This document shows, piece by piece, positions 41,062 to 62,349 of a DNA stretch of 64,000 nt (within the stretch, counting starts at the first letter, position 1; every line of letters starts with the position of its first letter). The translations under genes were made by a program, and so were the position numbers. The DNA comes from a bacterium (GTDB lineage Bacteria > Zhuqueibacterota > Zhuqueibacteria > Residuimicrobiales > Krinioviventaceae). Location of the stretch: NCBI GenBank assembly GCA_029561455.1, contig JAKQIY010000065.1:1-64000 (forward strand), given 5' to 3'. Under the pieces are notes generated by a model. The model was given only the letters and a program-made list of their open reading frames with translations. It had not been told where the DNA came from and made no database searches.

Positions 41062-41082
41062 CCATCATAAAGTTTTTCGAAT

Positions 41083-41110
41083 AATATAGCAATTTTTACT
41101 ATTATGTCAA
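41083..41110 (-). promoter_or_regulatory. Sigma-70-type promoter of the HDOD operon
   Basis: On the minus strand: a perfect TTGACA (41105-41110), 16-base spacer and TATATT (41083-41088), about 22 bases before the HDOD start. The short leader leaves little room for other control. Confidence 0.8.
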
Positions 41111-41688
41111 GCAGTTTTCAGGTTTCAAATACTATTTTTTTTATTTATAAAAATTATAATGAAAATATCGATGAGTCCTTAATATAGTAATATTTTCTAT
41201 CATTCATACAACTACCTTATAAAGTTATTTAAATGACTGGTTCTACTTAAATTTAATAATATAACATCATAATATTTTAAAACATGCCTTACACTTAAAA
41301 AAACAGGTCTGCAATTTAGGATAATTTTTTACATAACCGGATTTTAATTACAAAACATTCTTGCATCTAATATATACTTACTGATGTTATGCATTATAAT
41401 ACAATATTCCTATGCAAAAGTAAGTAAAAAATTCCCATTTTTAAAAATTTGGCATACATATTGAAATAAATGAATCAAAAGAATGATTGAAAAGATGAAG
41501 GCAATATAAATAATCATTAATTATATTAAACTTAACAATAAAAAAATAATTTAAATTTCAATCATCAAAATAAAATCTTGAGGCGCACAAGACACAAAAA
41601 TGAAAGCGTGTTTCCAAAATGTCCCAATGAAATTAGTCAAGATAAATCCTTTTAAAGCCTACCGGTTTTACAAGGCAGGAGTAAAATT
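41111..41688. other. AT-rich intergenic region before the first lyase
   Basis: About 580 bases between divergent units (HDOD operon and lyase). Very AT-rich. It must carry the lyase promoter, but no single box stands out. No gene is seen. Confidence 0.5.
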
Positions 41689-44600
41689 ATGAATAAAACA
41701 AGAAAAAACAATATGAACAAGTTGGGTATATACAATAGAAAAAATGTATTTTCATTTCTAGTCATCTTTGTACTAATACTGCTTGGAAGCGAGTTTGGAT
41801 TTACCGAATCCCATCCAATCTGGAATCCTACTGGTGATGTAACTACCCTGCAAACCAGTGTTGCAGATTATGTTAATATGACCGACACGCAACTGCGCAG
41901 TCAGTTGACCACCGCCGGAGGTAAAGCCGAACCGCATAATATCGAAATGGTTGATATTACTTATAATTTTGCCCTGTTATATCATTTAACAGGTAACAGC
42001 AGTTATGCACACAAATCCGCCGTGTTACTGGATCGTTATGCCGAAGTATTTCCAAGCTGGCCGCTCGATTATAGCGACAGCCGCGGTCATTATATGTGGT
42101 GGGATAACTGGTTTCACCGCGATCTCGGCATGGTTGCCCGTTACCTGGCCCAGGCGTATGACCTGTTATACAACAGCGGCGCTTTTGAAGCGATTGCTGC
42201 CGGTACCAGAGATAAAGTGAAATCTTTTTTAATCAAAGTTGTTCAGGTGGATTTTGGTTACCAATTTTACTTTTTCAATGCTGCCGGCACCAGGCCGCTT
42301 GGCATTATGGTATTTGGACGCGTTTTGGATGATCCGGAACTCGTTCATCTCGGTTTCTGGTATTACAACCAGATGATCCACGAAATGTATACCTATGAAG
42401 GCTTTTTTTATGAAGGTAATTATGAATATATGGCCAGTCATGTAGGGACATTAAGTTCGCCGGATTATAAATTCTTCTTTGAAGGCTATTCCGATCCGCC
42501 AGGTTATGTTCACACTCCTTTTGACAGCCGTTACGACCCCACTCGCATTGATAATCTCAATTTTGACGCCCTGTTCAAACCCAAATTGGACAGGATGCTT
42601 ACAATGTTGTGGGATACCACTTTTCCCGATCTCATCTGGCCGGTTTTAAATGAAACCTTTTCTTACCCCATCGGGTATAGCAGCCGGGGCTACCATTATC
42701 TCAAATCCCCCCTGCAAAACACTACTTTGATGGGCGGCATTGGTCACGCCGCTTTAACCTATGGCACAGGTCGCCAACAAACCCAGGTCCGGTTCGATTT
42801 CAGTCCTTCCATTGGCCATCAACATGCCGATGCGTTGCATCTGCTCTATTATTGTAAAGATGAAGAAGTCGTCGGCGGCACCGGTTACAGCCACATGGAT
42901 CGCGACTGGAATTTTACTACCTTGAACCAAAACCTGGTTGTTGTTAATGGTGTAGATCAAAAATACGATTATTGGACAAATTATACTTATTCCCCATACA
43001 TACCGGGTCAGGGCAGGATCAGCGGCCGGCCGGTTACTCAGCCGATGGAGGATACCAACCTTCACAATAATATTTTGATCTTTGAACCAGCCTATCAGGA
43101 TTTTGATAAAGTTCAGGTCGTTGAAGTGGATGCCAAAGATGCATATAGTCAGTTGAATGTTTCCCGCTACCAGCGCATGCTGGCCCTGACCAATATTGTC
43201 GATAATGATATGTATCTGGTCGATTTCTTCAGGGTCAAAGGTGGCACACAATATGATTGGACTATACATGGCGGTCATGTTACCCTTTGGGAACCGGTGC
43301 ATCCCCCATATTCTGCCAATACCAATTTGGCTATGAGCAGCACCTCCGGTACTTTTGGAAAAATGAATTTTACCCAACGAGCAACTACCGGCAATAACTG
43401 GTATGGCGAATTCAATTATAACGGTGTTATTAACCGGTTTATCATGTGCGGTAAAGCCAATACCACAGTTTATAGAGGCACAGGTCCGCAATCGGTCAAG
43501 GATGCCACAACCCCGCATGATTATTTTGTTGCCAGACGAACGGCGTCGACCAGTACTGATGAAAATTTCCTGGTTGTACACGAAACTTACACCTCTGCTC
43601 CCCATATTCAGTCCATTGAACAACTGACTTTTACTGGCGATGTAGGTACCGCCATTGGCGTTAAAATAACTCTTGATAACGGCATTGTTGATTATGTTAT
43701 CCACACCCTGGATGATGGGCCATCTTATCCGGCGCGTCAGGTTAGCGGCGTTGATAACCTCGTTATCAAAGGCAGGTTTGGTCATATCAGGGTTACCAAT
43801 AACGTAGTGACCTGGATGAAGCTGGTGCAAGGCGCATCGCTCAGCTACGGTACACGGATGATTCAATCAACTAAAGGCGATTATGCCTATAGAGGTTCTG
43901 TTACCGATGTTAACCGTAAAGAAGGCGGAGACAGTGAAAACAGCTTTGTCGTCAACACCTCTCTTCCCAGCAATGGCGATTTGGTCGGCCAGACCCTGAT
44001 CGTTACCTGGGGTAACGGCTGGAAGTGGGGGTACAAAATTAAAAATGTAATCGGCAACCGTGTTATTACCGAAGAAGATCCCGGTTTTAATTTAAATGGC
44101 AGTACTGTAGATATGAAATACTTCCCTACCGGTCAATATGCCGGACCGGTAACATTCATCATTCCTGGAACTGCTGTAATGGATGAGAACGGGTTGATCA
44201 ACAGCGTTGAAGGCGAACAGGTGTCGGGCGATGTCACCCCGCCCACGGTGTTAAGTTCCGTTCCGTTAAATAATGCTCAGGATATTGACGGCAAAGCGCC
44301 GATTGTGATCACTTTTTCTGAGGCTATGAATACCGGTAGCGTACAATCAGCATTTTCTATAACTCCGGCAGCCAATATGGGCTTTAACTGGAGTGGCAAT
44401 ATACTCACACTTACTCCGCTCACCTCCCTGGCGGCAACCCAGCAATATGTGCTTAAAATAAGCGGCGCGGCTACCGATATTGCCGGAAATTTCCTCGATG
44501 GCGATAACGACGGCACTGCAGCCGATGATTTCATTTTAAATTTTAAAACCAAAACCCCGCCGGCTCCGGTTTACCTCTTTGTTGAAGCTGAAACCGGTAC

Positions 44601-45591
44601 GCTAACAGCGCCGATGGTACTTGGCTCCGATCCACTGGCTTTTGGATATTCCTTTGTGCAAATACCGAACGGCGCCGGTAATACAGGCAATGGCGCTGCA
44701 GAAATTCCATTCTCCGTTCCGGCCAATGATACCTATATCATTTGGGGTAGAATTATAGCGCCAACCGGCAGCGATGATTCATATTTTGTGCTTTTAGATA
44801 ATGATCGCGAAAGGATCTGGGATTGCCTGTACGATAACAGCTGGTCGCCAAACTGGAAATGGGATATGATTTCCGAACGCGGCACAGGTACTTTTGATAA
44901 TCCGCAGTACGATCCCGGTTTGTTTACACTCACAGCCGGTACCCATGTTCTCAAACTGAAACAACGTGAAGACGGGGTTATGCTGGATAGAATTCTTGTC
45001 ACCAATGACCTCAGCTTTAACCCTGAAACTGTTACCGGACTGGTGCAATATAACTTACCGGCAGGGTATGGAACGGTAGCCCTGCCCGTTAAAAATGATA
45101 AAATTACCAAAGCCAGCGAACTGGCGGCTGCTATTGAAGCCCAACTGGGCGCTAATACGGTTAACGGTATATCCTACTGGAATCAGGCTACGCAAAAATT
45201 TGTCAGTTTTGCCCCGCATTTGCCGGCCTTTTTGCAAGGACCCAATTTTACTATACCGATTGGCCTACCGATCCTGACCAATACCACAACCAGCGGCAAC
45301 TGGACTTTGATCGGTACAATAGATGAAATAAATTACAGTTTAGGCCAAGGCTATAATACTATAGCCCTGGAGTTAACGCAAAGCGCTATAACCAAAGCTA
45401 GTGAACTGGCCACGGCAATTGAAGCGCAAATAGGCGCCAATGCAGTTAACGGTCTCTCTTATTGGAATACGGCAACGCAAAAATGGGTCAGTTATGCTCC
45501 GCATTTGCCGGTTTTCCTGCGTGGCACGGATTTCCAGACCTATCCGGGTCACTATTATCTGGTTAATATGGTTACATCAGGAAATTTTTAA
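41689..45591 (+). CDS. Secreted heparinase II/III-type polysaccharide lyase with Ig-like, CBM-like and C-terminal repeat domains
   Basis: 1300 residues. AGGAG lies seven bases before the ATG. A signal peptide runs to about residue 40. The (alpha/alpha) toroid part has 'IWNPTGDV', 'FALLYHLTG', 'WPLDYSD-RGHYMWW' and 'GYSSRGYHYL'. The beta-sandwich part has the conserved His cluster 'GHQHADALHL' (His377, His379). A bacterial Ig-like Big_5 segment lies at about 850-960 ('PTVLSSVPLNNAQDI', 'VITFSEAMN'), a CBM-like jelly-roll at about 965-1105 ('VEAETGTL', 'VMLDRILVTND'), and two repeats of about 90 residues at 1116-1300. Heparinase II/III-fold enzymes cleave acidic polysaccharides (heparin, alginate, oligo-alginate); the substrate is unknown. 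No T9SS tail. A paralogue lies at 47739. Confidence 0.88.
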   Translation: MNKTRKNNMNKLGIYNRKNVFSFLVIFVLILLGSEFGFTESHPIWNPTGDVTTLQTSVADYVNMTDTQLRSQLTTAGGKAEPHNIEMVDITYNFALLYHLTGNSSYAHKSAVLLDRYAEVFPSWPLDYSDSRGHYMWWDNWFHRDLGMVARYLAQAYDLLYNSGAFEAIAAGTRDKVKSFLIKVVQVDFGYQFYFFNAAGTRPLGIMVFGRVLDDPELVHLGFWYYNQMIHEMYTYEGFFYEGNYEYMASHVGTLSSPDYKFFFEGYSDPPGYVHTPFDSRYDPTRIDNLNFDALFKPKLDRMLTMLWDTTFPDLIWPVLNETFSYPIGYSSRGYHYLKSPLQNTTLMGGIGHAALTYGTGRQQTQVRFDFSPSIGHQHADALHLLYYCKDEEVVGGTGYSHMDRDWNFTTLNQNLVVVNGVDQKYDYWTNYTYSPYIPGQGRISGRPVTQPMEDTNLHNNILIFEPAYQDFDKVQVVEVDAKDAYSQLNVSRYQRMLALTNIVDNDMYLVDFFRVKGGTQYDWTIHGGHVTLWEPVHPPYSANTNLAMSSTSGTFGKMNFTQRATTGNNWYGEFNYNGVINRFIMCGKANTTVYRGTGPQSVKDATTPHDYFVARRTASTSTDENFLVVHETYTSAPHIQSIEQLTFTGDVGTAIGVKITLDNGIVDYVIHTLDDGPSYPARQVSGVDNLVIKGRFGHIRVTNNVVTWMKLVQGASLSYGTRMIQSTKGDYAYRGSVTDVNRKEGGDSENSFVVNTSLPSNGDLVGQTLIVTWGNGWKWGYKIKNVIGNRVITEEDPGFNLNGSTVDMKYFPTGQYAGPVTFIIPGTAVMDENGLINSVEGEQVSGDVTPPTVLSSVPLNNAQDIDGKAPIVITFSEAMNTGSVQSAFSITPAANMGFNWSGNILTLTPLTSLAATQQYVLKISGAATDIAGNFLDGDNDGTAADDFILNFKTKTPPAPVYLFVEAETGTLTAPMVLGSDPLAFGYSFVQIPNGAGNTGNGAAEIPFSVPANDTYIIWGRIIAPTGSDDSYFVLLDNDRERIWDCLYDNSWSPNWKWDMISERGTGTFDNPQYDPGLFTLTAGTHVLKLKQREDGVMLDRILVTNDLSFNPETVTGLVQYNLPAGYGTVALPVKNDKITKASELAAAIEAQLGANTVNGISYWNQATQKFVSFAPHLPAFLQGPNFTIPIGLPILTNTTTSGNWTLIGTIDEINYSLGQGYNTIALELTQSAITKASELATAIEAQIGANAVNGLSYWNTATQKWVSYAPHLPVFLRGTDFQTYPGHYYLVNMVTSGNF
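45034..45588 (+). repeat. Tandem ~90-residue protein repeat at the end of the lyase
   Basis: Coding repeats 45034-45297 and 45298-45588. Both contain 'ITKASELA-AIEAQ-GAN-VNG-SYWN-ATQK-VS-APHLP-FL'. The unit looks like a surface-attachment or sugar-binding domain; no family name is assigned. Confidence 0.85.
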
Positions 45592-45629
45592 TAAAACAAC
45601 ACACACACTAATTTCTTGAACCTCCCCGC

Positions 45630-45680
45630 CAGGGTCAGCCTTGAACAAGCATTACCGCTTTCAGGCTGACCCTGTCTTTT
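45630..45680 (+). terminator. Terminator of the first lyase gene
   Basis: A 12-base perfect stem (CAGGGTCAGCCT and its complement), loop of 21, tail TCTTTT, about 40 bases after the stop. Confidence 0.85.
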
Positions 45681-46060
45681 ACAAGACACACTTCCTTTTT
45701 GCCTGCTGTACAAACCAAGTTGATAATAAAAACCTTTTTTCTGCTACATCCTGATGATGAAAAATAAAAGATAACACATGACTGTGCCGGCAGAGTGATC
45801 GTATTCCCTCCAGGATTATCGTCAAGCCAATTTTCGGGTTAACAAACCAAAAACGAGAGATACAGCCAGTTCAACAAAGCGGCTTTCCAGCTTTTACAAA
45901 AACAGCAATAAACACAATTGACCTGTTACCTGAAAATATTCCATGCTTTTGCCAAATCATCATTTAATATCATCAGAAATTATCAAAAACAGGCTTCCTT
46001 TATTCCACTAGAAGAAAAACAATCCATCATGGCGTTTCCTACCAATCCCCCGGTTCTATA

Positions 46061-46089
46061 CTCTGTCCATAAAAATGGACAGAGCTTTT
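46061..46089 (+). terminator. Hairpin CTCTGTCCAT with tetraloop
   Basis: A 10-base perfect stem (46061-46070 with 46075-46084), AAAA loop, followed by CTTTTC. Terminator-like, but no gene ends close to it on this strand except the lyase, 470 bases earlier, which has its own terminator. Confidence 0.5.
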
Positions 46090-46147
46090 CAGCATAGTAA
46101 TTTAACCTTTATTAAACGGCTCATGCCACAAAAAGCCAAAGGGCTTA

Positions 46148-46181
46148 TTAAAAGTTGTCCCCTCGAAGGGACAACTTTTAA
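46148..46181. repeat. 14-base perfect hairpin
   Basis: TTAAAAGTTGTCCC and its complement around a six-base loop (CTCGAA). No T tail on either strand, 165 bases before the small T9SS protein gene, so it could be a leader RNA structure or an insertion-type palindrome. Confidence 0.6.
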
Positions 46182-46346
46182 AGCACACTGTGCCCAAGTT
46201 ATTTATTTTCAATATCTTATTGTATCAATGAAAATTAAAAGCTGCATCTTATTGTAAATAATGATTTTAAGTCTGCAATTTTTGGCTTTCCCGGTGGCAT
46301 GGTACTTGAATAAGGGTATAGTGAAACAGTAATAAAAAACTTAACA

Positions 46347-47378
46347 ATGGAAAAGACAATGTTTACATTCAATATAAAATCCAGAACAATCCTCGGTGCG
46401 GCTTTATTCATGTTCATGCTGCTTTCAATAGTTCCCGATGCTTTAGCTCAGGCCCCAAAACACATTTGGTCATTTGTCTACAATTCCGATGGTTCAACCC
46501 CGGCTAATGGCGACATAACGATCAGAGTTTATCTGCAAAAAAATCCAGGTAATGTTATTACCACCTCCAATACTGCCAACGGTTGGGAATATGACATTAA
46601 CAATGCCTGGAGTTTTTTTCCGAATCCGTCCGAAAGTACTCCCACCAGCGCAACAGTAGATGATGTTGTTGTTATAGAATTTGAAAATACCGGCAGCAGC
46701 GCTCATAACGGTGAAAGCAGTGTACTTACCGGCGCACTGGATGAGAATATGTATCAGCAAATTGGTAATAATAATTTTGCCTTACCGGTTGAATTATCTC
46801 ATTTTTCCGCCACTGAAGAAAACGGCGCCGTTGTGTTAAATTGGGCAACTGCAACAGAGACCATCAATCTCGGTTTTAATGTATATCGTTCGGAAGAAGG
46901 CATGAATCAGTTCCAGAAAATAAATGACAAGATCATTGCCGGACATGGTACTTCTGCTGAGAAACACACTTATAGCTTTACAGACAATGATGTTACTTTT
47001 TCAAAAACCTTTGAATACAAGCTGGAAAATATTAATGCCGACGGCACCAGCAAAATATCGGGCCAGTTATCAATAACTATCGAATCACAACAACTGCCGT
47101 CAAGTTTTTCAATTTCTCAAAACTACCCGAATCCCTTTAACCCAACCACTTCTATCAACTACTCTTTGCCCCGCAATACTCAAGTTAATATCATTATCTA
47201 CAACACTCTGGGCGAAGTAGTAAAAGAACTCGTCAATTCCCGCCAGGATGCCGGTTCTTATACAATAATGTGGGATGGTTATTCCGATCTGGGTAACCCG
47301 GTAGCCTCTGGAATGTATTTTTACGAAATTAAAGCCGACAATTTTAACCAGGTTAAAAAGATGACTTTATCCAGGTAA
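46347..47378 (+). CDS. Small secreted protein with novel N-terminal domain and T9SS sorting tail
   Basis: 343 residues (the ATG at 46359 is an alternative start). A signal peptide ends near 'DALAQ'. Residues ~35-150 form a domain I do not recognise ('IWSFVYNSDGSTP', 'VYLQKNPGN', 'ANGWEYDINNAW'), followed by an FN3-like segment with the hinge 'ALPVELSHFSA' and 'LGFNVYRSEEGMN'. The final ~85 residues are a classic type A T9SS sorting domain ('SQNYPNPFNPTTSINYSLP', 'YNTLGEVVKEL', 'GMYFYEIKADNF'). So it is exported by T9SS and anchored on the cell surface. It lies between the two lyases. A paralogue is at 50568-51584. Confidence 0.87.
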   Translation: MEKTMFTFNIKSRTILGAALFMFMLLSIVPDALAQAPKHIWSFVYNSDGSTPANGDITIRVYLQKNPGNVITTSNTANGWEYDINNAWSFFPNPSESTPTSATVDDVVVIEFENTGSSAHNGESSVLTGALDENMYQQIGNNNFALPVELSHFSATEENGAVVLNWATATETINLGFNVYRSEEGMNQFQKINDKIIAGHGTSAEKHTYSFTDNDVTFSKTFEYKLENINADGTSKISGQLSITIESQQLPSSFSISQNYPNPFNPTTSINYSLPRNTQVNIIIYNTLGEVVKELVNSRQDAGSYTIMWDGYSDLGNPVASGMYFYEIKADNFNQVKKMTLSR

Positions 47379-47738
47379 TACCTGAACAGTACAATATATA
47401 AATCTCTCCTCCCTCCAATGCTGCCCCCGTAAAATTTACGGGGGTTCTTTTTTTCCAGCCGCAAAAACATCCTGCTAGTTGTATTTATTATTGATGAATT
47501 AGTGATTTATTTTTTATACCAATTTTCATATATTCGGCTATGGTCTGGTTCTGATAGTTGACCACAGTATAATAACAAGATAATTACACTAATGCCTGCA
47601 CAGAATTAACGTGACTGATAAATTATAATTCCAACGACCGCTGCAGAATAAAGGCTGCTTTGGCAAGAGTCGAATAATGAAATAAATTATTCCTGAAAAG
47701 CATTTTATTATATGTAATCATTTTTTTGAAAGGACAAT
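47379..47738. other. Intergenic region before the second lyase
   Basis: About 360 bases. It holds the terminator at 47424-47454 and the promoter region of the second lyase. Nothing coding is seen. Confidence 0.5.
47424..47454 (+). terminator. Terminator of the small T9SS protein gene
   Basis: A perfect near-palindromic stem CCCCCGTAAA with its complement, tail TTCTTTTTTT, 46 bases after the stop. Confidence 0.9.
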
Positions 47739-50270
47739 ATGTTAAAGCATACTTGTAAAAGAATCAACATACCGGGAATAGTTGTCTTGTTAACAGCCAT
47801 CATTTTCATTTTTACAGCCGATCTGGCAGCTGTTACGCACCCTATCTGGAATCCCACGGGGAATGTCGATTCGTTGAAAAATAATGTTAAAAATTATCTT
47901 TCACTTTCCAATTCGCAGCTCAGGAATAAACTGGATAATTCCGGTAAAGCCAATACTCAAAATGCCGCCATGGTCAATATAACATACGATTTTGCCCTGC
48001 TTTACCACTTGACCGGAGAAAACCGCTATGCTGATAAAGCCGCGACGCTTTTAGCCAGGTATGCCGAGGTGTTTCCCAATTGGCCGCTTGATTACAGCGA
48101 TAAACGCGGCCACTATATGTGGTGGAAGAACTGGTTTCACCGCGATCTGGGTGAAGTAGCCAGATTTTTACCACAAGCTTACGATCTGATCGCCACCAGC
48201 GGCGCTTTGGAACGAATTAGCCAGGATACAGGACAAAAAGTGCTGACCCTGTTTCAGCAAATTGTACAGGTCGATTTGGGTTATAAACTATTCTTTTTTA
48301 ATGCCGCCGGCACCCGCCCCCTGGGACTGATGATCTTTGGCAGGGTTCTGGACGACCCGGAACTGGTTCACCTGGGCTACTGGTATTATAACCGCCTTAT
48401 CCATGAAATGTTTTGCCACGATGGTTTTTGGCTGGAAGGCAGCTATGAATATGGCGCCAGCATTGTCGGTGATATTACCCAAAAAGATTATGCGTTTTAT
48501 TGCAATGGTTACTCAGACCCGGAAGGTTATACCCACATTCCCTTTGACCCGGTCTGGGATCCGCAGCGTCTCGACAACCTGGATTTTAACGCCATTTTTG
48601 GTGATATTTATGATCGCATTAATTTTGCATTATGGAAGACGGCGCTGCCGGATGATAAATGGCCGGTTTTGAATGAAACTTTTGCCTTCCCCACCGGTTA
48701 CAGTAATCAACAATACCATCCACAGCGGGAACCGTTGACAGAATCACGATTATTCGGCGGACTTGGACATGCCGCGCTGACTTTGGGCAACGGCTTGGAA
48801 CAAATCCAAACCCGGTTTGATTTCAGTAATGCCATTGGCCACAGTCATAACGATGCCCTGCATCTGATCTATTTCAGCAAAGGGGTTCAGGTTGTCGGCG
48901 GCACCGGCTATACCGAGGGTAATCGCGATTGGAACAATTCAACAATTAACCAAAATCTTGTCGTTGTCAATGCCAAAGAACAAAAAAGCGAAAGCTGGAA
49001 TGATCGCACTCCCTCGCCCTATATTCCAGGCAAGGGGAGAATCGAAGGTATGCCGGAAAGACTCCCCTTCCCGGATACCAATATGCATAATAATGTGATA
49101 ATGTTTGAACCGGGTTTTCAGGATTTCAAACAAGTGCAGGTAACTGAAGTAGATGCCCTGGATGCCTATGCCAATTCCGGCGCTACCCGCTACCGGCGCA
49201 CTCTGGCGCTAGTCAGTATTTCAGAGAACGATACCTATCTGGTCGATTTGTTCCGTTTACAGGGAGGCTCACAATATGACTGGTGCATTCATGGCGGCTA
49301 TGACAATTATCAGATCACCACAAACCTGAACCTGAAAAGCGCCTCAGGCAAGTTCGGCAGTATAGCCATCAAGAAAAAAGCGGAAACCAATGCAGCCTGG
49401 TATGGCGAAATTGCTTATGCCAACGCCAAACACCGGTTCACCATGTGCGGAGCGCCCGCCACTGCCGTATTTACCGGCAAAGCCCCGCAATCCATTAAAA
49501 ACGGCGGTCAGCAGGATTATTTATTCGCACGGCGAATGACAAACAGCAACGCCGATGAAAATTACCTGGTTGTACACGAAACTTTTACCTCCGCGCCGCA
49601 TATCCGTGCTGTTGAAAAGCTGATCTTTACTGAAGAAACCGGCTCGGCCGTTGGTATCAAGGTTACCCTGGATAATGGTCGGATCGATTATATCATCCAC
49701 ACCCTGGATGACGGCCCCGATTTCCCGGAACATAAAATCACCGGCGGCGACGAGATTCTGATCCGCGGCAAGTTCGCTCATATCCGGATGGTCGGAGGCA
49801 GTGTGGAGTGGATGTACCTGGTGCAGGGGAAATCATTAACGGTCAATTCCCTGGCCATCGAATCGCGGAACCCGGAATACTCATTCCGGGGAATTGTTAA
49901 CCGAGTTGAGAGGAGGCAAGAAGGCGCTGCTGCTAACTGCCTGGTTGTCGACACGTCGCTGCCGGCTGAAACCTTGCCCGGTAAATCCATTATCTTGACC
50001 TGGGCTAATGGCTGGAACTGGGCATATACTATTAAAGAAGCGACGGGCAACACCATTACTTTAAATGAAGAACCGGGATTTACCTGGAATGGCGATAAAA
50101 TAAATATGCGCTTTTTCCCTGCCGGTCAATACCTAGGCCCGGTACAATTTATCATACCCGGAATTGCACTGTTGAATGGTGGGCAAACTATAAGTACGGA
50201 ATACATTCAATCAGTCGATAAGACACCCCCGGCAATACCAAAAATTAAAGGTGCACGTAAAGATAAATAA
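47739..50270 (+). CDS. Secreted heparinase II/III-type lyase, short paralogue
   Basis: 843 residues with a signal peptide (about 1-30). It matches the 1300-residue lyase at 41689 through its whole catalytic part, with long identical runs ('WPLDYSD-RGHYMWW-NWFHRDLG', 'GTRPLG-M-FGRVLDDPELVHLG'), the His cluster 'GHSHNDALHL' (His368, His370), and the C-terminal lyase module that ends near residue 820. It stops exactly where the longer protein begins its Ig-like domain ('DKTPPA'), then ends in a short basic tail. It has no binding domains and no T9SS tail. Two lyases with different accessory parts suggest a free and a substrate-bound form. Confidence 0.9.
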   Translation: MLKHTCKRINIPGIVVLLTAIIFIFTADLAAVTHPIWNPTGNVDSLKNNVKNYLSLSNSQLRNKLDNSGKANTQNAAMVNITYDFALLYHLTGENRYADKAATLLARYAEVFPNWPLDYSDKRGHYMWWKNWFHRDLGEVARFLPQAYDLIATSGALERISQDTGQKVLTLFQQIVQVDLGYKLFFFNAAGTRPLGLMIFGRVLDDPELVHLGYWYYNRLIHEMFCHDGFWLEGSYEYGASIVGDITQKDYAFYCNGYSDPEGYTHIPFDPVWDPQRLDNLDFNAIFGDIYDRINFALWKTALPDDKWPVLNETFAFPTGYSNQQYHPQREPLTESRLFGGLGHAALTLGNGLEQIQTRFDFSNAIGHSHNDALHLIYFSKGVQVVGGTGYTEGNRDWNNSTINQNLVVVNAKEQKSESWNDRTPSPYIPGKGRIEGMPERLPFPDTNMHNNVIMFEPGFQDFKQVQVTEVDALDAYANSGATRYRRTLALVSISENDTYLVDLFRLQGGSQYDWCIHGGYDNYQITTNLNLKSASGKFGSIAIKKKAETNAAWYGEIAYANAKHRFTMCGAPATAVFTGKAPQSIKNGGQQDYLFARRMTNSNADENYLVVHETFTSAPHIRAVEKLIFTEETGSAVGIKVTLDNGRIDYIIHTLDDGPDFPEHKITGGDEILIRGKFAHIRMVGGSVEWMYLVQGKSLTVNSLAIESRNPEYSFRGIVNRVERRQEGAAANCLVVDTSLPAETLPGKSIILTWANGWNWAYTIKEATGNTITLNEEPGFTWNGDKINMRFFPAGQYLGPVQFIIPGIALLNGGQTISTEYIQSVDKTPPAIPKIKGARKDK

Positions 50271-50277
50271 AAAACTC

Positions 50278-50508
50278 ACTACCGGACACTTTATGGACTC
50301 GGTTTCAAACATGCTACCCCTACGGGGTTTGAGCTTGTATTTATGTATTATTCTATAAACATATCACCCCCTACCGGGGGTTAATTTCATTTAATTGACT
50401 TAAAAATAACCGCGAAGCGGTGAAATGTTTGTAGAAAGAGAGCCATCTCAGCACAATCTAACCCCGTAGGGGTGATATGTCGGGAACTTATAAAAAGTGT
50501 CCGGTAGT
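50278..50508. mobile_element. MITE-like element with 15-base terminal inverted repeats
   Basis: 231 bases bounded by ACTACCGGACACTTT (50278-50292) and its exact complement (50494-50508). Inside are two 'ACCCC(T/G)ACGGGGT' type palindromes, at about 50315-50330 and 50460-50473, and a third unit near 50367-50382. It encodes nothing. No clear target-site duplication was found. It lies between the second lyase and the shared terminator. Confidence 0.75.
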
Positions 50509-50513
50509 AAGAT

Positions 50514-50547
50514 AAAAAAAAAGCTCCGGTTATATCAGCCGGAGCTT
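50514..50547 (-). terminator. Bidirectional terminator between the lyase and the second small T9SS gene
   Basis: A 9-base perfect stem (AAGCTCCGG and its complement), loop of 9. The minus strand has a long T run (from A's at 50514-50520), fitting the end of the 50568 gene. The plus strand ends in TTTTA, so it may also stop the lyase transcript. Confidence 0.88.
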
Positions 50548-50567
50548 TTACATTCTAAATTCCCAAT

Positions 50568-51584
50568 TCATCGGGCATAGATCATCTTGCGGGTTAAAAT
50601 AGATTCGTTGGTGCGCAATTCACAGAAATAAATCCCCGCGGTAACCTGCTGCCCGCTGTCGTCAATGCCATTCCAGTTAATAGAAAAAGATCCGGCGCCC
50701 TGCTGCTCATTCACCAGGCGGGTAATATAATCTCCCAACAAGTTGAATATGGTCAGTTGCACCATAGTATCTGCAACCAGGTTGTACCTGATGGTGGTTT
50801 CGGGATTAAAAGGATTGGGGTAATTCTGCGCCAGTTCATGCTGCGCCGGTAAAGCAGCAACACTGGTTGTGACCGAAACCGGGCTGAACGTACTGGTCTT
50901 GCCTTTAATATCCACAGCTTCAAGTTTATAATAATAAGTATGACCGGGATTAACATTTTTATCCGTAAAAGAATAACGAGTCTGTACAGTACTATTCCCG
51001 GCGCCACGTACCATAATATTATTGATCTTTTCAAAATTTACCGCCATATCAACACTGCGGTAAACATTAAAGCCCAGGTTATTCACTTCGCTCTCGGTGG
51101 TCCACTTTAATTCAATAACACTGTTTCTGTATTGAGCGCCAAAAGACGATAACTCTACCGGCAGGGAAAAATCATTCGGGCCGATTTGCTGGTTTTGATT
51201 AATATCCAACGTAGCTTTTAGTGTTTTAGTTTCTCCTGCAAAGGGACCAACACTGACATTTAAAAATATAATCGTAATTTCATCTCCAAAATTAGCATTG
51301 GTTGCGCCGCCGCCGCCAGATTGGTACCAGGTCCATTTAGCGTCAACATCCACGCCCCAACCGTTACTGACATTATATACAGTTGTGGTGCTGGTTGGAT
51401 TTTTGGAAAGAAAAGCGGTTACAAGTATGTCATTATCATTCGGGGAACTATTATCTGAATTATGTACGAATCCCCAAACCGTTTTGGGAACAGAGTATAC
51501 AAAATCAGGGAGCAGAAAAAGAACAAGAAACAATACAGTTATTGCACCCCAACCCTTGCCTTTAAAATTGTAACAGTTTTTCAT
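50568..51584 (-). CDS. Small secreted protein with novel N-terminal domain and T9SS sorting tail, paralogue
   Basis: 338 residues. A signal peptide (about 1-33) is followed by the same unrecognised domain as at 46347 ('VWGFVHNSDNSSPNDNDI', 'AFLSKNP', 'NGWGVDVDAKWTWY', 'GDEITIIFLNVS'). An FN3-like domain follows ('SLPVELSSFGA', 'LGFNVYRSVD'), then a type A T9SS sorting tail ('AQNYPNPFNPETTIRYNL', 'IFNLLGDYITRL', 'GIYFCELRTNE'). It is transcribed towards the second lyase and shares the terminator with it. The two copies look about half identical in the N-terminal domain by eye. Confidence 0.87.
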   Translation of the reverse strand: MKNCYNFKGKGWGAITVLFLVLFLLPDFVYSVPKTVWGFVHNSDNSSPNDNDILVTAFLSKNPTSTTTVYNVSNGWGVDVDAKWTWYQSGGGGATNANFGDEITIIFLNVSVGPFAGETKTLKATLDINQNQQIGPNDFSLPVELSSFGAQYRNSVIELKWTTESEVNNLGFNVYRSVDMAVNFEKINNIMVRGAGNSTVQTRYSFTDKNVNPGHTYYYKLEAVDIKGKTSTFSPVSVTTSVAALPAQHELAQNYPNPFNPETTIRYNLVADTMVQLTIFNLLGDYITRLVNEQQGAGSFSINWNGIDDSGQQVTAGIYFCELRTNESILTRKMIYAR

Positions 51585-53343: not shown

Positions 53344-55437
53344 TTAATTTATGTTAAATACTGTTTTGGTCAGGGAAGGAACCCTGTCCACTTGAATATA
53401 ATATTTATTATTATCAGCGTCCGCCAATACAATAGTATCATTATTATAGTCCGGCAGCATCGTATTGCCCAATGAAATAACAGTTATATACCGCACCGGC
53501 AGGTCCCGGTGCGAATTGGCAATTATTACCGGGGACGGTTTTCTTTCGCCATAATAAAGCGAATCAAAACCCGCCGGTAACGATTCATTACCTTTATGAT
53601 ATTCGAATCGGCGCTCTGCTCCTGCCAGTAATGTCAGCATTGCCGGGGAACCGGCGCAATCCAGCCGTACACTGTTGTCCTGAATCTTTTGCATGCAATC
53701 GGCAAGCTGCCAGTGCAAGGTCACTTTATGACGGCCTTGCCCGGTAATATCGTCAACGATAATCCAGCAGTTCAAGGCATCAACCTGCATTACAGAACGG
53801 TGATGAACAATATGATCACCCAGTCTTTTAAAACCGAAATGAGCGGCGGCAAAGCATGGATTTCCATCCACATTGCTCATTACCGGACGACTGGTTTGCA
53901 GCCAGTCGTACATAATGAACCGTTCTCCATAAGACATCTGCCCGGCGTCATCTACCATTATTGTATTATGAGCCCCTGAGCCGTTAAAAAAATGCCGCCA
54001 GTGTGTAGCGGTGTTGTATAAATACGACCCGGAATCCCGCAGCACATTTACACCACGCCACCATAAATCCAGGTGCAGGCAGTCCGCCTGGCCCGGACGG
54101 GTTTTAAAACTGTGACAACGGATCAATCCCCAACTTAAAGCGCCGCGCAAGGTATAATACCCGCCGTCGTTAAAAGCGCTGGTTACATAAGGCACATCTA
54201 CACGAACTGCCGTTGAGGCGTTTTCACCCCAATACCACAACAGGTCTTCATCCCAGGGTCCGGCAGGATATAATTTTTGGTTATATAACTGGTAATAGAG
54301 CGCCTGGATCACCGGTCTGTAATCGAGATAGTCACAGGTATTCAGGGGTACAATGATCGAACCGTCATTCGAACCGTAATTCGGCACCCGGCCGGTTTCA
54401 CCATCCTGCATCTGATAAAGGAAATCAACCGCTTTTTTTACTTTATTTATAAACGTTTCAGGAAAAGTATCTTTATACACCTGTCCCAGGCGCAGAGACC
54501 ATAAAATTGTGTGCAGCATCAGGCGGTGATAATTTAAAGAATGTTGAATATAAGCGCCATCGGCAAAGATCTGTTTTAATGCGGTATTTACCAGGATTGC
54601 TTTACCGCGCCGCCGCCAGCGCCGGGCTTGTTTAAACTCCGGGAATAATAATCCAGCCGTGTATAACCCGGTCGCTTCTGTAAGCGCATGATTGGTACGA
54701 GTGGAAATGGCATAACGAATATTCCCATCTATGCGCTCTGCGTGTACAGCAATAGCCTTGAACAACTTGAATTTTCGTTCTGTACTGGTAGCGGCGGCAT
54801 TATTAAATGCGAAACCGGCAAAACATATAGCCATCAGGCGCAGCGCGCATTCCTGGCCGCAATAGTAATTCGGACCCCGGTTTGGCTGATTATTCTCAAG
54901 CCAGTCCTCAAACAACTCCCAAAATTTTGCCGGGTACTTGTTATCGCCAGTTACAGCAAAAGCGCGGACTAGCAGGTATGCCCAGGCAAACCGCGATGGT
55001 TCCCATATATATTTAATATCTCCCAAATCAGGATCAAAATCTTGCAATTCACACCAATGGCGGGCGGAATCTGCGCGTTTGCCGGTAACAGGATTGCGAA
55101 ACCAGTCCGGTTTATCACCCAGGGAATAACTATGATTAAAAAAATAAAAAAACCGGTTATGCAGTATTTCATCAGCCCTTTTAATGATATCTGAATGCCA
55201 GGCCGACGTGCATACCGGTAAATGGTTTGCAGTAAAAAAGAATTTCCTTTCCCTGGTCAACATGCCCGCTACATCGCCGCGCACATACTCTTCCAGGTGA
55301 ATTTGATCCCACAAACGCATCGGGAATTTGTGCTTTTGCCACCCGGTCTTCCGTTCCAGCAAATAATAAATTCGGAACAAAAGGAATCCTGGGCCATAAT
55401 TTTTTATGATTTGCAGAATTCTATCGAGCCTGTTCAT
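53344..55437 (-). CDS. Heparinase II/III-like protein of the glycan cluster, no signal peptide
   Basis: 697 residues, no signal peptide. N-terminal 'YGPGFLLFRIYYLLERKTGW' is typical of heparinase-like proteins encoded inside exopolysaccharide clusters. The toroid has 'STRTNHALTEATGLYTAGLL' (about 250-270), and the beta-sandwich has 'GQADCLHLDLWWRGVNVLRDSG' (His near 450; the lyase His/Tyr site) and 'GAHNTIMVDD'. Related families cleave uronic acid polymers. Without a signal it could act on intermediates inside the cell, or it may be a non-enzymatic partner. Its stop and start overlap or adjoin the neighbouring transferase genes (four-base overlap with the gene at 55434). Confidence 0.86.
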   Translation of the reverse strand: MNRLDRILQIIKNYGPGFLLFRIYYLLERKTGWQKHKFPMRLWDQIHLEEYVRGDVAGMLTRERKFFFTANHLPVCTSAWHSDIIKRADEILHNRFFYFFNHSYSLGDKPDWFRNPVTGKRADSARHWCELQDFDPDLGDIKYIWEPSRFAWAYLLVRAFAVTGDNKYPAKFWELFEDWLENNQPNRGPNYYCGQECALRLMAICFAGFAFNNAAATSTERKFKLFKAIAVHAERIDGNIRYAISTRTNHALTEATGLYTAGLLFPEFKQARRWRRRGKAILVNTALKQIFADGAYIQHSLNYHRLMLHTILWSLRLGQVYKDTFPETFINKVKKAVDFLYQMQDGETGRVPNYGSNDGSIIVPLNTCDYLDYRPVIQALYYQLYNQKLYPAGPWDEDLLWYWGENASTAVRVDVPYVTSAFNDGGYYTLRGALSWGLIRCHSFKTRPGQADCLHLDLWWRGVNVLRDSGSYLYNTATHWRHFFNGSGAHNTIMVDDAGQMSYGERFIMYDWLQTSRPVMSNVDGNPCFAAAHFGFKRLGDHIVHHRSVMQVDALNCWIIVDDITGQGRHKVTLHWQLADCMQKIQDNSVRLDCAGSPAMLTLLAGAERRFEYHKGNESLPAGFDSLYYGERKPSPVIIANSHRDLPVRYITVISLGNTMLPDYNNDTIVLADADNNKYYIQVDRVPSLTKTVFNIN

Positions 55438-60540: not shown

Positions 60541-62349
60541 CTAGTTTACTAAAAACATCTTTCTGGTAAGATACTGCATTTCGGTTTTTAATTGGTATAC
60601 ATAAAAACCGGCCGCTACTTTGCTGTTATAATCATTGGTACCATCCCAGTTCAGTGAATAAAAACCGGGATACCGGTAATCTTCCAGCAGAGTTTTTACT
60701 CTTTGCCCCGTAACGTCAAAAATTGCCAACGTTACATGAGAATAGTGTGATAAACTAAACTGAATAACAGTTCTGGAATTAAATGGATTGGGATAATTTT
60801 GATATAAATGAAAAGTATTCTCCTGTTTTATTACAAGTGTAATAGTTTCAGAAAAATTTAAAGTACCATCATTATCTAGTAGTTTCAAACGATACTTGAT
60901 CTTTCCGTAATCACTTTCCTGATCGGTAAAGCTGTATGTCCGGTAGCGTTGATTAAATTCTACAAAACCAATTTTTATGAATTCATTATTGTCGGTAGAT
61001 CTTTGAATTTCATAACCAAAAAATCCTTCTGCCTGCTCCACCTCCCAACCCAGTTCAACCTGGTTATCCACGATACGGGCATAAAATACTACCAAATGAA
61101 CCGGGGTCGGCTCGGTATGCACAATTATTTTTTCTTCCGCCAGGTTGCCAATTCCCAGTGCGTGACAGGTATTGAGGTACTGCCGTAACGGTAATTCAGC
61201 AAGATCGGGATTCATATATGGTGCAATATTTTCATTCTTCTCACTAGCCACCGGGTATAAAACATATTTGGAGGCGTAATAATCCAACGCGACCGGGTCG
61301 GCGCTAGCCAGAATCACTTCAGTATGCTCCGCAACCGATACGGTTCGTCTGTCTGCCCAGCCAACCCACTCGGCAGTAGTAATAAACAAATCTGCGCAGC
61401 GTACCTGTTGTAAAAAAGTGCCGACCGCGCCCCCCATAACTCCCGGCGCCGGGCCGGGATCATCCCAATTATAGGCAAAGGCATGAAAATTATAAAATCC
61501 GCCGGTGATTATACCGTCAGTTGCCGGGTTGCTGCCGCCGGATAAATCGACAATGCCGAAATGGTTTTTCAAAGCGCTGGTAACACCGGCATAATTACTA
61601 TGATAACATAAAGCGGAAAAAACAATCAACTTGACCGGTTGACCAGTGTACTGCCCATTCTTCCAGGCGCCATTCTTTAAATCGATGGTAATTCCACTAT
61701 AGGAGGAAGTGAATACCGGGTAACTCATAATCGTTTGCCGGTGGTCATCGCCGGAAGCGCCGTTATCATAGATTATATCTGTCAGATAAACGTACCCGTC
61801 ACCTTCTTCCGGCCCGGTAACCCGTGTACCGCCATAATTCTTTACATCGTTCCAGCAATAACTTGTTACATTGGCGTGTCCCTGCGATTGCAACAAATCA
61901 ATCAGATCAACAAGATTATGTACATTAGCAACATCCGAATTGATTTCAAAAGTTGTGCCCCAGGCGCCTTTGCTAAGTGGATCGGCGCGGTGGTTGTTAT
62001 CGCAAATAATAACCTCGCCGGAAAAACCGGGACTGGTTAATATCAATTCAATGAATTTTTTCATGGCTGCCAGGTTTGGTGAACCCTGGTTCCACCATTG
62101 GGCATTGGTCTTAATTACTACAATGTCATTGTTCTGTATGATTGTAGATATCCCTCCCATCTGGGAGATAACGTTCTCCATATTTTGGGCGGGGCCGTTA
62201 TTTCTGGCCATAAAAATATGGGAAACATCATCACGGAAAGGATTGCTTTTCACTGATCGGATCGGCAACAACCCGGCGGCCAGCGCCGCTCCCGATGCCA
62301 GTCCACTCTTTTTAATAAAAGTTCTTCTGTTTATTCTTTTACCAGCCAT
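60541..62349 (-). CDS. DUF362-like protein with Tat signal and T9SS sorting tail
   Basis: 602 residues. The N-terminus has a twin-arginine motif ('INRRTFIKKSG', Arg8-Arg9) with 'LASGAALAAGLLPI', so Tat export is likely. The main part (about 50-400) resembles DUF362: 'DIVVIKTNAQWW', 'VIICDNNHRAD', 'VKLIVFSALCYHSNYAGVTSALKNHFG' (pieces within ~250-285), 'RCADLFITTAEW' and 'ASADPVALDYYASK'. A FN3-like region (about 410-510) is followed by 'YQNYPNPFNSRTVIQF' and a type A T9SS tail to the end. Folded Tat cargo then secreted by T9SS would be uncommon. It is 17 bases upstream of the FemAB-like gene. Confidence 0.82.
   Translation of the reverse strand: MAGKRINRRTFIKKSGLASGAALAAGLLPIRSVKSNPFRDDVSHIFMARNNGPAQNMENVISQMGGISTIIQNNDIVVIKTNAQWWNQGSPNLAAMKKFIELILTSPGFSGEVIICDNNHRADPLSKGAWGTTFEINSDVANVHNLVDLIDLLQSQGHANVTSYCWNDVKNYGGTRVTGPEEGDGYVYLTDIIYDNGASGDDHRQTIMSYPVFTSSYSGITIDLKNGAWKNGQYTGQPVKLIVFSALCYHSNYAGVTSALKNHFGIVDLSGGSNPATDGIITGGFYNFHAFAYNWDDPGPAPGVMGGAVGTFLQQVRCADLFITTAEWVGWADRRTVSVAEHTEVILASADPVALDYYASKYVLYPVASEKNENIAPYMNPDLAELPLRQYLNTCHALGIGNLAEEKIIVHTEPTPVHLVVFYARIVDNQVELGWEVEQAEGFFGYEIQRSTDNNEFIKIGFVEFNQRYRTYSFTDQESDYGKIKYRLKLLDNDGTLNFSETITLVIKQENTFHLYQNYPNPFNSRTVIQFSLSHYSHVTLAIFDVTGQRVKTLLEDYRYPGFYSLNWDGTNDYNSKVAAGFYVYQLKTEMQYLTRKMFLVN

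Follow-up and report, generated by a model that had tools for sequence, protein, structure and literature searches.

Two undescribed domains, which we call T and N, appear from their sequences to have a testable joint function in surface display through the type IX secretion system (T9SS). The candidate functional unit consists of a tandem T tail, an N domain, and a type A T9SS C-terminal sorting domain (CTD), and it would come either as one chain (cargo-T-T-N-CTD) or as the products of two adjacent genes (cargo-T-T, followed by a signal peptide-N-CTD protein). We favor, with moderate confidence, the reading that this is a single unit acting in cis or in trans, in which T-tailed cargo that lacks a CTD relies on the N-CTD protein as its T9SS adaptor or anchor. 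A small tagged partner probably carries or holds large, secreted CTD-less T-tailed proteins, among them a predicted polysaccharide lyase, on the cell surface.

A locus with two lyases and two small T9SS proteins

The window, meaning the whole 64,000-nucleotide stretch of DNA that was analyzed, is part of a 5.85-Mb genome in 85 contigs from an uncultured phylum in which most named members bear the label candidate division KSB1. This genome encodes the T9SS core components SprA and PorU, both of which score over their cutoffs. Open reading frames confirm four genes in the window, with lyase genes and genes for small proteins interleaved (Table 1). They are flanked on the left by HDOD, sensor kinase, and OmpA-family genes and on the right by a polysaccharide synthesis cluster that includes glycosyltransferases, a Wzy-type ligase, and a third heparinase-like protein, the latter in a gene order that is kept in the congener G037 (locus L069). 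A DUF362-like protein with a T9SS-type tail is also encoded inside this cluster, and an AT-rich intergenic stretch precedes lyase 1.

Table 1. Features of the window (positions in the 64,000-nucleotide stretch)
Feature	Position	Strand	Description
AT-rich intergenic stretch	41062-41688		5' of lyase 1; GC 0.23, flanking genes much higher
Lyase 1	41689-45591	+	ORF, 1300 aa; signal peptide; predicted heparinase II/III-superfamily lyase, ~aa 35-840; Big_5 (Ig-like), aa 848-941; unassigned linker domain (VEAETG motif), ~aa 960-1105; tandem T tail, aa 1114-1300
T tail of lyase 1	45028-45588	+	Two ~85- to 90-aa tandem repeats at the extreme C terminus; E = 2e-47
Small 1	46347-47378	+	ORF, 343 aa; signal peptide; N domain; Fn3-like, aa 147-248; type A T9SS CTD, aa 254-343
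N domain of small 1	46449-46790	+	
Terminator-like hairpin with T-run	47423-47445	+	Directly 3' of small 1; consensus match only
Lyase 2	47739-50270	+	ORF, 843 aa; signal peptide and lyase only; ends where Big_5 of lyase 1 starts
Near-palindromic MITE-like repeat	50275-50520		~240 bp; a few bases 3' of the lyase 2 stop codon
Small 2	50568-51584	-	ORF, 338 aa; signal peptide; N domain; Fn3-like; type A T9SS CTD
N domain of small 2	51156-51494		
Third heparinase II/III-like protein	53344-55437		697 aa; Hepar_II_III_N and Hepar_II_III_C both matched; within glycosyltransferase cluster
DUF362-like protein	60541-62349		T9SS-type tail; inside polysaccharide synthesis cluster

The two lyases are paralogous across the catalytic part (53% identity over 843 aa; E = 0), as a reading made from the sequence alone (the sequence-only reading) had claimed. 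They are the sole two members of their family in the source genome, and a full-length member was found in only one other among 82 genomes of the phylum. Lyase 2 matches Hepar_II_III_C (PF07940; gathering score, 24) at 25.7 bits, and lyase 1 falls just below the threshold at 21.5 bits. Because an exopolysaccharide cluster adjoins the lyases, trimming of a self-made polysaccharide, or scavenging, is their likely role.

The same reading held that the lyases carry no anchoring tail. This is correct insofar as there is no known T9SS CTD: lyase 1 has no match to Por_Secre_tail, CHU_C, TIGR04183, or any other CTD family. However, lyase 1 does end in the conserved T tail. Lyase 2 has none, and a search for T remnants after the gene found nothing. 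The MITE-like repeat next to its stop codon has terminal inverted repeats (CACTACCGGACACTTT/AAAGTGTCCGGTAGT), seven matches in the genome at 96 to 100% (three of them at contig ends), and a predicted RNA fold of -104 kcal/mol (z, -11). It is plausible that lyase 2 lost its tail beside this repeat.

The small proteins belong to the T9SS substrates, as had been proposed, with type A CTDs above curated cutoffs in a genome that has SprA and PorU. Small 1 and small 2 score 37.2 and 35.1 bits, respectively, against TIGR04183 (cutoff, 23 bits) and 29.7 and 30.6 bits against Pfam PF18962 (cutoff, 27), and both begin with hydrophobic segments that resemble signal peptides by a heuristic measure. The model of the small 1 C terminus superimposes on PorU residues 1055 to 1157 with a Z score of 10.6 and an rmsd of 2.8 over 90 residues. 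The two proteins had also been described as paralogs, and they do align at 40% identity over 314 aa (E = 2e-84), but the C-terminal ~200 residues of that alignment (Fn3-like domain plus CTD) are generic, with ~40 proteins of the source genome matching them at ~30 to 45% identity. We therefore rejected full-length paralogy as the mark of a special small-protein family, since most of the alignment is this Fn3-CTD tail. What does bear out the earlier claim of a shared, unrecognized domain is N, which makes up the N-terminal ~110 aa of the mature protein, is 37% identical between the two, and, in comparisons within the source genome, is the only part specific to them.

AlphaFold2 models of related N domains are beta-sandwiches that resemble transthyretin/CnaB-like domains. 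A VIA fold search with N gave Z scores of 7 to 9 to CnaB2, to carboxypeptidase transthyretin-like domains, and to 5-hydroxyisourate hydrolases, values that can reflect a common arrangement only. Searches of Pfam and NCBIfam with T and N returned weak, scattered matches, none common to most members. In PDB sequence searches, N had only weak propeller, sialidase, and laccase matches, and T had none.

T and N occur together, fused or as neighbors

The first N search, for which the queries were the two window sequences only, uncovered N genes in 17 genomes, and in most cases the next gene 5' encodes a large protein that ends in T and lacks a CTD. Profiles of T and N, built partly from such adjacent pairs, were then run over the 82 genomes. 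T is present in 27 of them and N in 26, and all 26 genomes with N also have T; the Fisher test for co-occurrence (P = 1.6e-20) is nominal because the species are related and the counts are not independent. Among named genomes, a scan found eight T loci, five labeled KSB1, two labeled only as “bacterium,” and one labeled Aminicenantes.

The census of T comprises 54 proteins, two of which are cut by contig ends. Among the 52 uncut proteins, 27 have their own CTD, and 24 of these have T-T-N-CTD in one chain; the other three (L097, L101, and L122) have no recognizable N. The remaining 25 lack a CTD, and in these T ends 0 to 19 aa from the C terminus. An N-CTD gene lies beside every one of the 25: 22 are directly upstream of it, and 3 (in G072 and G073) are in the same cluster, where one N-CTD gene is common to two or three T proteins. 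In one split pair (L074), the CTD of the partner falls in masked bases. Known CTDs were looked for on split cargo (lyase 1, the G037 lyase, and others), and none was found. The cargo itself is diverse and unrelated, including a lyase, a subtilase, choice-of-anchor/ASH, FG-GAP/UnbV, and RGL11-like proteins, an apiosidase-like protein, and a 1500-aa protein without a Pfam match. T is thus a general tail and no part of the lyase. The source genome has both forms, with T-T-N-CTD chains on another contig (C68) and the split pair of lyase 1 and small 1 in the window.

Split N-CTD genes mostly begin 3 to 100 bp after the T gene, and in some the ribosome binding site overlaps the upstream stop codon. 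The spacing between lyase 1 and small 1 is far above this, at 755 bp, and the hairpin directly 3' of small 1 possibly closes a putative unit of the two genes. Readthrough joining T and N was considered and rejected, as the N genes have their own start, ribosome binding site, and signal peptide. Judged by hydropathy only, 22 of the 24 split T proteins have a signal peptide-like segment, and the other two are cut or masked; all 37 N-only open reading frames have one. As a control for gene neighborhood, a CTD-less, signal peptide-bearing gene of at least 400 aa lies directly upstream of 19 of 29 small N-CTD genes, versus 4 of the 23 remaining CTD genes at these loci (P = 7e-4).

Two further arrangements were seen. 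N stands on both sides of the T tandem (N-T-T-N-CTD) at L086:6766-11511 and L110:5047-9018, which suggests from domain order that N domains may sit on either side of T. At L100:4036-14239 and L085:7066-13830, one N-CTD gene accompanies two or three CTD-less T-tailed proteins, one of them a subtilase.

The sequence-only reading had looked to a pairing of lyase and small protein across genera. The pairing is real in the sense that N-CTD proteins and proteins without a T9SS tag go together systematically across many genera of the phylum, but the untagged partner is defined by its T tail and not by the catalytic domain of the lyase.

The position of T at the extreme C terminus of all 25 CTD-less cargo proteins, where a sorting signal is expected, together with the existence of several known types of T9SS signal (A, B, and C; PMC10202324), would also fit a different model. 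In it, T would act on its own as a new sorting signal, recognized by the translocon or a shuttle, and the N-CTD protein would be an accessory surface protein and no carrier. We consider this improbable. T is not always terminal, since it lies internally in 27 proteins, ahead of a type A CTD, and an autonomous signal leaves the constant N-CTD neighbor of the CTD-less forms unexplained.

Proposed mechanism

We return to the N-CTD protein as adaptor. In the split form, including lyase 1 and small 1, both proteins would be exported by Sec, the T tail would bind its N-CTD partner, and the CTD of that partner would direct the complex into the T9SS and on to the cell surface. Lyase 1, whose substrate would be a polysaccharide, would thus be displayed there without a sorting signal of its own. 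Either the complex would be exported jointly across the outer membrane, or the cargo would reach the surface otherwise and then be caught. Underlying this proposal are the observed domain grammar, adjacency, genome co-occurrence, and signal peptide-like segments, the lack of a known CTD on split cargo, and the T9SS genes. The same parts in the same order, fused or neighboring, are a classic sign of joint working. The T9SS recognizes its substrates by the CTD (PMC12618676 and PMC10202324), and split cargo has no known CTD; the simplest account is therefore that the separate N-CTD protein provides, in trans, the function that fused proteins contain in cis.

Physical binding of T to N is compatible with the way in which the domains diverge. 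Among split pairs, divergence of T correlates with that of N at r = 0.88 and with that of the CTD of the same small protein at r = 0.81, and the partial correlations are 0.67 for T and N given the CTD versus 0.42 for T and the CTD. This is suggestive, in that it fits contact between T and N and also fits shared descent or species history. A single-chain AlphaFold2 construct that reads through from T-T to N (16 sequences; signal peptide kept as a linker) reached a pLDDT of 81 and a pTM of 0.41, the latter value giving no confident T-N docking, though the individual domains are good.

The common domain order of split and fused forms is also what would be predicted if an ancestral cargo-T-T-N-CTD gene had undergone fission (or if the reverse had happened) and the halves no longer formed a complex, with the cargo periplasmic or released and the small half a relic or a protein with another role. 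Such a history without a complex seems unlikely to us, given that the N half has its own signal peptide and is kept next door in many genera, that the cargo still retains T at its C terminus, and that N co-diverges with T more than the CTD does in split pairs, where relics would decay.

More tentatively, we propose that the KSB1 phylum may have a carrier route through the T9SS, in which CTD-less proteins are exported or displayed in complex with a small CTD-bearing adaptor that reads their C-terminal tandem tail. A literature search for CTD-less T9SS cargo carried by a partner found no such system, an absence that is no proof. If the route exists, one sorting signal could serve separately encoded cargo, and the pair would be a natural two-part tag for surface display. 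If the CTD is indeed divided between cis and trans forms, secretomes predicted from CTDs would miss some of the exported proteins, including a polysaccharide lyase, subtilases, and large uncharacterized proteins.

History of the locus

The syntenic locus of the congener G037 has OmpA, kinase, and HDOD genes on one side and glycosyltransferases with a heparinase-like gene on the other. Between them, the small 1 ortholog (61.5%) faces the small 2 ortholog (56%), and neither a lyase nor a lyase remnant was found there. The single lyase of G037 is encoded elsewhere in its genome. It has 1301 aa and the layout of lyase 1, T included (55.6% over the full length), and it is followed on the same strand by a third small N-CTD gene, in the order and orientation of lyase 1 and small 1. 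Another N-CTD gene in G037 follows a T-tailed choice-of-anchor/ASH-type protein instead of a lyase.

With both small orthologs but no lyase at the locus, the small genes were already there before the two species separated, and gain or loss of the lyases was independent of them. By this sequence comparison, small 1 and small 2 diverged before the two species did, and their divergence is not linked to the lyases. In the window, lyase 2 and small 2 are unpaired; no T protein is encoded upstream of small 2, which makes it an orphan N-CTD gene, like two genes on contig C165 of G037 and others.

The sequence-only reading had explained the locus by duplication of a lyase-small pair as a unit, followed by inversion of one member. 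In that model, the lyase or its polysaccharide is held or presented directly by the small proteins. Both families are indeed two-copy and interleaved in the window, and the lyase-small adjacency recurs at the single G037 lyase. However, the small gene at that lyase is a third one, the syntenic locus has both small genes with neither lyase nor remnant, N proteins elsewhere have nonlyase T-tailed partners, and lyase 2 has no T. The duplication does not survive these comparisons, and the model as a whole is very unlikely.

Comparison with known systems

The nearest solved relative of the lyases is the alginate lyase AlgL17 (PDB 9irq), which a profile of both lyases matches at an E value of 2.4e-7 over part of the toroid domain only. 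The likeness consists of this weak but significant match together with the match to Hepar_II_III_C. The lyases are too distant from AlgL17 for assignment of a polysaccharide lyase family or substrate, and lyase 1 adds the C-terminal T tail.

Cohesin-dockerin and other noncovalent display pairs offer a possible analogy, in that a module of an enzyme binds a module of an anchored protein, as T might bind N. In contrast to cohesin and dockerin, T and N belong to T9SS bacteria, and their binding is putative. No cohesin or dockerin family was matched by T or N in Pfam or by T in NCBIfam. The small proteins end in the same domain as T9SS type A CTD proteins (PF18962/TIGR04183), but in those the CTD is usually on the effector itself, whereas in the split T/N form the effector is a separate chain.

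The T/N-CTD pairs resemble in layout, but are distinct from, the pairs of type B CTD proteins and SprF-like partners (SprB-SprF and PG1035-PorP; PMC9143113 and PMC12618676). In both, the gene for a large surface protein is directly followed by one for a dedicated partner; in the type B pairs, too, orphan partners and orphan substrates exist, and the partner sets the final surface anchoring. However, the type B substrate has its own CTD, and its partner is an outer-membrane beta-barrel shuttle. In the T/N system, no known CTD is present on the large protein. Its partner carries an N domain and a type A CTD and is a signal peptide-N-Fn3-CTD beta-sandwich protein, not a PorP/SprF-like outer-membrane barrel.
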